From Methylibium sp. NZG (GTDB taxonomy: Bacteria; Pseudomonadota; Gammaproteobacteria; Burkholderiales; Burkholderiaceae_C), in the NCBI GenBank assembly GCA_001263235.1, contig LGRD01000002.1:496001-560000 (forward strand): DNA of 64,000 bases, in the 5' to 3' direction. Below are positions 39,928-42,031 of the stretch, piece by piece (the stretch's first letter is position 1; each line of letters starts with the position of its first letter). The position numbers were made by a program, and so were the translations under genes. The notes beneath the pieces are model-generated. The model ran no database searches, was not told the origin of the DNA, and was given only the letters and a program-made list of their open reading frames with translations.

Positions 39928-41847
39928 TCAGGTCTTGGCGGCGATGTCCTTGGCGATCAACGTGGAGAAGTCTGCCAGGGGCATCACACCCAGATCCCGG
40001 TTGCCCCGGGCGCGCACCGCGACGGTTCCGTTTGCCTTTTCCTTGTCGCCCACGACGAGGATGTACGGAACCTTCTGCATAGAATGCTGACGGATTTTAT
40101 AGTTAATCTTCTCGTTGCGCAAATCGGACTCGACCCTAAGTCCTTGTTTTTGCAGCGATTTGACAACCTCGGCGGCATAGTCGGCCTGCGCTTCGGTGAT
40201 GTTGAGCACATCGACCTGCACCGGTGCCAGCCAGGCCGGCAGCGCACCGGCGTGCTGCTCGATCAGGATGCCGATGAAGCGCTCGAAGCTGCCGATGATC
40301 GCGCGGTGCAGCATCACCGGGTGGGCGCGGCCGCTCGACTCGGTGACGTACTCGCCGCCCAGCCGCTCGGCGGTGTTGAAGTCGACCTGCATCGTGCCGC
40401 ACTGCCACTGGCGGCCGAGCGCGTCTTTGAGCGTGTATTCGATCTTCGGCCCGTAAAAGGCGCCATCTCCGGGCGACACGATGAATTCGCAGCCGGACCG
40501 GCGCATCGCCTCCATCACCGCGAACTCTGCCTTGTCCCACAGCGCGTCGGAGCCGACGCGGTGTTCTGGCCTGGTGGCGACCTTGTAGATGATCTCGGTG
40601 AAGCCGAAGTCGGCGTAGACCTTCTGCAGCAGCGTCGTGTAGGCCACGCATTCGTCGAGGATGTGGTCCTCGGTGCAGAAGATGTGGCCGTCGTCCTGCG
40701 TGAAGCCGCGCACCCGCATGATGCCGTGCATCGACCCGCTGGGCTCGTTGCGGTGGCATTGGCCGAACTCCCCGTAGCGCAGCGGCAGGTCGCGGTAGCT
40801 GCGCATGGCCGAGCTGAAGATCAGCACATGGCCGGGGCAGTTCATCGGCTTCAGCGCGTACTCGCGCTTCTCCGACTCGGTCGTGAACATGTTGTCGCGG
40901 TAGTTGTCCCAGTGGCCGGTCTTCTCCCACAGGCTCTTGTCCAGGATCTGCGGGCCCTTGACTTCCTGGTAGCCGTTGTCGCGGTACACCCGCCGCATGT
41001 ACTGCTCGACGTTCTGCCACAGCGTCCAGCCGCGCGGGTGCCAGAACACCAGGCCCGGCGCATGTTCGTCGATGTGGAAGAGGTCGAGTTCGCGGCCCAG
41101 TTTGCGGTGGTCGCGCTTCTCGGCCTCCTCCAGCATGTGCAGGTGCTGCTGCAACTCGTCCTTGGTGGCCCAGGCCGTGCCGTAGATGCGTTGAAGCATC
41201 TCGTTGCGGTGGTCGCCGCGCCAGTAGGCGCCGGCCACCTTCATCAGCTTGAAGTGCTTCAGCCGCCCGGTGCTGGGCACGTGCGGGCCGCGGCACAGGT
41301 CTTCGAACGCGCCCTCGCGGTACAGCGACACATCCTCGTTCGACGGGATGCCGGCGATGATCTCGGCCTTGTAGTGCTCGCCGATGCCCTTGAAGTACGC
41401 CACCGCCTCGTCGCGCGGCAGCACGCGGCGCTCGACCTTCTCGTCCTTGCGGGCCAGCTCGGCCATCTTCGCTTCGATCGCCGCCAGGTCTTCGGGCGTG
41501 AAGGGGCGCTTGTACGAGAAGTCGTAAAAGAAGCCGTTCTCGATCACCGGGCCGATCGTCACTTGCGCGTCGGGAAACAGCTCCTTCACCGCATACGCCA
41601 ACAGGTGGGCCGTCGAGTGGCGAATCACCTCCAGCCCGTCGGCGTCCTTGTCGGTGACGATGGCAAGCGGCATGTCGCGGTCGATCACGAAACTCGTGTC
41701 CACCACGCGAGGCTGGCCGTCCTGCGTCACCCGGCCAGCGAGTGCCGCTTTGGCCAGTCCGGAACCGATGGAAGCGGCCACTTGGGCCACCGTCACCGGC
41801 GCGTCGAACTCACGCCGCGAACCGTCGGGCAGTTCAATCGAGATCAT
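39928..41847 (-). CDS. thrS: Threonyl-tRNA synthetase
   Basis: Charges tRNA-Thr and edits Ser-tRNA-Thr. The 639-residue enzyme has the TGS domain ([19 protein letters not shown]), the editing domain with [16 protein letters not shown], the class II core with zinc-ligand regions ([28 protein letters not shown]) and the C-terminal anticodon domain ([35 protein letters not shown]). The ATG follows AGGAG. A terminator hairpin lies just upstream, after a threonine-rich leader ORF. It heads the thrS-infC-rpmI-rplT(-pheST-ihfA) block. Confidence 0.97.
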
Positions 41848-41860
41848 GGGAAGCTCCTGC

Positions 41861-41896
41861 AGAAAACAAAAAAGCGCGGGCCATGCCGCGCTTTTT
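41861..41896 (-). terminator. Terminator hairpin in the thrS leader (candidate attenuator)
   Basis: On the minus strand AAAAAGCGCGG and CCGCGCTTTTT form an 11-base-pair stem with loop CATGGC, followed by TGTTTTC, then the thrS ribosome site 8 bases on. Its position between promoter and start codon means it must be read through for thrS to be expressed. The upstream segment GCCGCGC (41935-41941) is fully complementary to GCGCGGC of the first arm (41885-41891), giving a possible antiterminator. Confidence 0.82.
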
Positions 41897-41914
41897 GAGG
41901 GTCGATGAAAGGAT

Positions 41915-41992
41915 TCAGTGCATTGGGTCAAGGCGCGCGGCCGACCATGCCTTCCGTCGGAAGGTGGTAGTTCGCGGTGTCATAACCAGCAT
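41915..41992 (-). CDS. Threonine-rich leader peptide upstream of thrS
   Basis: A 25-codon open frame reading [10 protein letters not shown] at its start, with four threonine codons (ACA, ACT, ACC, ACC) among residues 5-10. An AAGGG lies ten bases before the ATG. The frame stops at TGA (41915-41917), 19 bases before the terminator hairpin. A small hairpin (CCTTCC-GAC-GGAAGG) follows the Thr codons. The arrangement is that of a classic attenuation leader: stalling at Thr codons when charged tRNA-Thr is low would favour antitermination. Not experimentally known to me for this group. Confidence 0.6.
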
Positions 41993-42025
41993 GCCTTTCT
42001 CGCCCTTGTGATTACCAGTTCGCAG

Positions 42026-42031
42026 ATTGTA
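42026..42031 (-). promoter_or_regulatory. Probable -10 element of the thrS promoter
   Basis: GGCTACAATCTGCG on the minus strand supplies a good -10 box (TACAAT). A transcript starting about seven bases further would carry a leader of about 170 bases before thrS. The -35 region is poor (TGAACC at 19-base spacing), so the assignment rests on the -10 and on context. Confidence 0.45.

Follow-up and report, generated by a model that had tools for sequence, protein, structure and literature searches.

A predicted threonine attenuator with a fixed rare-codon core ahead of thrS in Methylibium and related Burkholderiales

Organization of the thrS upstream region

The DNA analyzed here, referred to as the window, is a stretch of 64,000 nucleotides from Methylibium sp. 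NZG. On its minus strand lies thrS (39928..41847, ATG at 41847), preceded by a Shine-Dalgarno sequence AGGAG at 41858-41854. A profile match to the TIGR00418 equivalog (E=4e-213) identified its product as threonine--tRNA ligase (ThrRS), and thrS is the gene that the element described below is predicted to regulate. Downstream of thrS are infC, rpmI and rplT, followed by pheS, pheT and an ihfA-like gene; infC was assigned by TIGR00168, and the remaining genes were read by eye. Read in the same way, the infC frame seems to continue on the minus strand upstream of 39794, with IF-3-like residues extending from an ATC codon, as would be expected of an infC that begins at an unusual start codon.

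A sequence-only reading of the region ahead of thrS had listed a TACAAT box, a small hairpin, a GCCGCGC segment and a strong terminator, and all of these are present on the minus strand, which carries every feature given here. The -10-like box TACAAT is located at 42026..42031 and predicts a transcription start near 42019; no convincing -35 was found for this box. It is followed by a Shine-Dalgarno sequence AGAAAGG (41994..42000) and by a leader ORF, placed on the basis of conservation and Shine-Dalgarno spacing at 41915..41983 (22 codons from ATG 41983). The near-invariant core of this ORF, GGTTATGACACCGCGAACT (41969..41987), holds the start codon, Thr ACA, Pro CCG, Arg CGA and Thr ACT. The putative sensing Thr codons span 41963..41980 and correspond to residues 2, 5, 6 and 7 of the 22-codon leader (ACA 41980-41978, ACT 41971-41969, ACC 41968-41966, and ACC 41965-41963). 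A small hairpin, CCTTCC-GAC-GGAAGG (41950..41964), overlaps the Thr run; its counterpart in the relative L030 reads CCTTCGGTCCGAAGG, with both sides altered. Further along is a candidate antiterminator segment GCCGCGC (41935..41941), complementary to the 5′ arm GCGCGGC (41891-41885) of a predicted intrinsic terminator, AAAAAGCGCGG-CATGGC-CCGCGCTTTTT, that is followed by a T-rich tract (41869..41896).

The Leader ORF and Its Threonine Codons

The earlier reading had described a leader of 25 codons with Thr codons ACA, ACT, ACC, and ACC. The ORF and its Thr codons were confirmed, while the start it had assigned, ATG 41992 (in frame, stop at 41917-41915), is less likely on both conservation and Shine-Dalgarno spacing. 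The second ATG, at 41983, is most likely the true start, because it lies 10 nt from the Shine-Dalgarno sequence as compared to 1 nt for 41992, because two relatives (L047 and L077) carry GTG instead of ATG at exactly this position, and because the codons upstream of ATG 41983 vary among relatives while GGTT-ATG-ACA-CCG-CGA-ACT is kept. A Shine-Dalgarno sequence resembling GAGAAAGG was present in 160 of 193 distinct leaders; the usual GAGAAAGG block is absent from L008, L083, L119, and L132, in which the core is present, suggesting another mode of leader translation initiation in these loci. In the near relatives L022 and L030 the leader stops with TAG at codon 13. Codon 13 of the window leader (41947-41945) is TGG, so reading runs to the TGA at codon 23, and this extension may alter basal read-through.

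Codons 6-11 of the 193 leaders encoded 35% Thr in frame, compared to 1 and 3% in the other two frames. Thr occupied codon 6 in 160/193 and codon 7 in 100/193 leaders, the figure for codon 6 being mildly biased since the leader set was partly chosen with a 20-mer whose match extends over the first two bases of this codon. An in-frame stop occurred within 35 codons in all 193 leaders (comparison value, 34-41%). The peptide showed no conservation beyond codon 7, making a functional small protein less likely. The ORF is thus short and rich in the amino acid to be sensed, as in known attenuators, with its translation predicted.

Conservation in the Family and Order

Of 151 same-family genomes, 149 yielded a thrS locus, and upstream DNA was taken from 118 loci. 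Loss of the leader ORF or of its Thr codons in close relatives had been named beforehand as the outcome that would speak against an attenuator. The core and leader were found in 105 of the 118 upstream regions, and one of the 13 regions scored as lacking the leader proved to be a truncated contig that does carry the core; the leader is absent from about a tenth of family genomes. Leaderless loci of the same family include L025, L055, L058, L066, L096, L101, and L106, which have no leader ORF and in which a GC hairpin and T-tract remain before thrS; in some leaderless loci of the family these lie near a -10-like box. Counted over whole genomes, the 16-mer TRTGACACCGCGRACK occurred at most once per genome and was present in 119/151 family genomes, as compared to two matches for a reversed control pattern; of the 273 class-sample genomes outside the family, one contained it. 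A search of a named bacterial genome collection for an exact 20-mer gave at least 119 stretches, with titles that include Cupriavidus (Cupriavidus necator), Delftia (Delftia acidovorans), Variovorax, Massilia, Janthinobacterium, and Comamonas. Eighty of these stretches were examined and 78 could be assessed, and in 78/78 the 20-mer lay just upstream of a thrS-like start.

In the order sample, the MTPRT core or the forms MTPLT and MRPPT were common to several families outside that of the window. Among 52 upstream regions of other families without the full core, 18 carried CGA-AC[T/G] in frame near the start of a short ORF, as compared to 0.48 (sd 0.74, maximum 3) in a shuffled control; since these ORFs were searched by CGA-AC[T/G] itself, the evidence is the excess over shuffles together with the additional Thr residues, as in MSFRTTTTGTLNQG, MFRTCTTTWC, and MNTNTTRTTTTRHT. 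Other Burkholderiales families retain CGA-ACT alone of the core, in many cases with a tRNA-Val gene immediately ahead of it. thrS is directly preceded by a tRNA-Val (GAC) gene in L127, L128, L138, L154, L157, L162, L165, L172, L173, L175, L181, L186, and others, and some other-family loci consist of tRNA-Val, hairpin, and thrS only. The element is conserved over most of the family, and a related form over much of the order.

Conservation of the core down to the nucleotide, including the GGTT before the ATG, goes beyond a mere need for Thr codons, and could be accounted for if ThrRS recognized a tRNA-like structure in its own leader RNA and bound there, as for E. coli thrS, the core then being a binding site and not a run of codons. 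We regard this as very unlikely, given that the Thr codons past the core are strictly in frame, the start codon is exchanged only for GTG, an intrinsic terminator follows, and no Rfam family is matched. Furthermore, the CGA-AC[T/G] in a short ORF that is all the 18 other-family regions retain would leave little for a protein site.

Terminator and Alternative Pairing

An intrinsic terminator was predicted between the leader and the first gene in all 193 leaders, with a median of -16.0 kcal/mol and at a position 69-100 nt (5th-95th percentile) past the leader ATG. When 1 kb of sequence was scanned for terminators alone, one was found where 1.1 were expected by chance, which is not significant; it is the conservation in 193/193 leaders at 69-100 nt that raises the terminator above chance. 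That same chance expectation, together with the GC hairpin and T-tract kept in several leaderless genomes, would also fit a terminator that merely ends transcription of the upstream gene, with thrS served by its own promoter. The probability of this explanation appears minimal, as the terminator keeps its distance to the leader ATG in every leader, and a TANAAT-type box precedes the leader in 114/193 (scrambled motif, 45), clustering about 50 nt 5′ of the ATG; it would also leave the Thr enrichment and the co-varying antiterminator unexplained.

To score the alternative pairing, the sequence that separates the Thr codons from the terminator was paired with the terminator 5′ arm. The resulting duplex had -14.3 kcal/mol as compared to -11.8 kcal/mol in dinucleotide shuffles (Wilcoxon p=5e-26, a value weakened by the relatedness of the leaders). 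The segment also fitted its own terminator arm better than those of other species, none of 2000 permutations doing as well (0/2000), which indicates co-variation among what are related leaders. The alternative pairing that the sequence-only reading expected to find preserved in relatives is thus borne out, both in exceeding shuffles and in co-varying with the terminator arm. The partner segment lies a median of 9 nt past the leader stop, so it would be hidden by a ribosome located at the stop codon.

Folding of the full hairpin at equilibrium was weak as a test and depended on the ribosome edge: the terminator mostly wins even with a stalled ribosome (mean P 0.82 vs 0.90), and the value for the window ranged from 0.35 to 0.99 with the edge assumed. 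In its place, the RNA was folded only as far as the terminator loop. The results showed that before synthesis of the 3′ arm the 5′ arm is predicted to be sequestered with a probability of 0.88 for a ribosome at Thr5 and 0.61 for one at the stop, with 0.77 for shuffled spacers; the same fold gave 1.00 (Thr5) vs 0.34 (stop) in the window. The predicted antiterminator is thus blocked by a ribosome at the stop codon and freed by one at the sensing codons, an effect that is weaker under equilibrium folding. Since equilibrium favors the terminator, the switch would need kinetic commitment during transcription, as in known attenuators.

Fixation of Rare Codons in the Core

The thrS genes of 37 relatives with full thrS served as the reference for codon usage. 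Leader codons 2-5 were ACA in 34/36, CCG in 36/36, CGA in 35/36, and ACT in 34/36, whereas in the reference genes ACA, CGA, and ACT account for only 2.4, 2.4, and 3.1%, respectively, of the codons for their own amino acids. At the invariant Thr columns of thrS itself, the frequency of the major codon in the 37 genomes had a median of 0.64 and did not exceed 0.86. That the leader codons are fixed though rare points to selection on nucleotides or codons, beyond amino acids alone, and this codon-by-codon fixation of ACA-CCG-CGA-ACT despite the rarity of ACA, CGA, and ACT is new here.

The fixed rare CGA also bears on what is sensed. Attenuation could be real and yet respond to general translation stress, such as ribosome-targeting antibiotics or slow decoding of CGA, rather than to threonine; Arg-Thr is the only part common to the leaders of other families, and some bacterial uORFs sense antibiotics (PMC12121999). 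We consider such a signal improbable, as the residue enriched past the core is Thr and the gene controlled is thrS, both of which argue for threonine as the signal. Within a threonine-sensing leader, it is conceivable, and we put this forward tentatively, that ACA-CCG-CGA-ACT and the lone CGA-ACT pair of other families constitute a dedicated stall element, the sensor being the codon pair and not the Thr run. A rare, slowly read CGA in the P site would, in this proposal, render the next Thr codon extra sensitive to a shortage of Thr-tRNA.

Proposed Mechanism of Regulation

The earlier reading had recognized here the architecture of a ribosome-mediated attenuator responding to charged tRNA-Thr, and the frame-specific Thr codons, the terminator, and alternative pairing above shuffles uphold it. 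Judging from these sequence features, the element is very probably a ribosome-mediated transcription attenuator of thrS that senses charged tRNA-Thr. Weighing on the other side are the equilibrium preference for the terminator, the loss of the usual codon-13 stop in the window, and the family genomes that have no leader. When Thr-tRNA is ample, a ribosome would traverse MTPRTTT... to the stop codon and cover the antiterminator segment, so that the GC hairpin and U-tract could form and transcription would end before thrS. When Thr-tRNA is scarce, the ribosome would pause on the early Thr codons; the antiterminator segment, now uncovered, could pair with the emerging terminator 5′ arm, and RNA polymerase would continue into thrS until charging is restored. 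For this scheme we infer promoter use, leader translation, ribosome stalling, and threonine-dependent read-through, and infC-rpmI-rplT would come under the same control if co-transcribed.

If correct, this would place an essential enzyme under a control unlike that of the E. coli textbook case in many common environmental and industrial bacteria, and would predict how Cupriavidus necator, Delftia acidovorans, Variovorax, Comamonas, and Massilia respond when threonine is limiting or a ThrRS inhibitor is present. The fixation of rare codons makes the choice of codons by attenuators testable.

Comparison with Known Systems

In E. coli, ThrRS binds a tRNA-like RNA in the thrS operator and blocks the ribosome, with no terminator or Thr leader ORF involved; the gene is the same as here, and in both cases the level of ThrRS would be controlled. 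The thrS T-box of B. subtilis attenuates transcription according to tRNA-Thr charging by reading the tRNA directly. The element described here is likewise predicted to attenuate thrS transcription on tRNA-Thr charging but would do so through translation, which the T-box does not need; neither the window nor any of 20 related upstream regions gave a match to the T-box covariance model of Rfam.

The contrast that the sequence-only reading drew with E. coli thrS holds for the leader and terminator architecture, but the leader is not the first to be proposed for thrS, as a leader peptide, thrL, was proposed ahead of this gene in Streptomyces lividans (PMC8079986). The S. lividans thrL (MKRVRPFLETTPGFVPAR) has a leaderless transcript, only two Thr, and no clear terminator (PMC8079986). 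Both organisms would thus have a Thr leader peptide ahead of thrS, but the MTPRT core is not visible in thrL.

The attenuators of the E. coli thr, his, trp, and leu operons, including RF00506 Thr_leader, resemble the present element in the leader ORF rich in sensed codons, in antiterminator/terminator pairing, and in the U-tract; they control amino acid operons, whereas the element in the window is predicted to control a tRNA synthetase. No Rfam match was obtained in the window even at E<=1, and a search of 20 related upstream regions returned no curated family that explains the element. The gathering score of RF00506 was not reached, the best relative, L165, scoring 24.4 vs 55 bits. The E. 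coli thr leader has eight ACC codons, a major codon (PMC1183508), whereas the thrS leader here fixes the rare ACA and ACT. In the main text of Naville and Gautheret 2010 the symbol thrS does not occur, and the enzyme is mentioned only for E. coli. Our sequence analysis appears to add an order-wide family that is missing from Rfam, together with a fixed core of rare codons, and the element may have been predicted earlier elsewhere; Lopatovskaya et al. reportedly made a comparative survey of attenuation in 2010.

Attenuation of synthetase genes is already known from pheST: the E. coli pheM-pheST operon is a classical case of attenuation of a tRNA synthetase operon, with Phe codons and pheST in place of the Thr codons and thrS considered here. 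No Phe-rich, pheM-like leader ORF was seen ahead of pheS in the 64-kb window. Between rplT and pheS, at about 38497-38465 on the minus strand, there is a GGCCGA...TCGGCC hairpin followed by a T-run.
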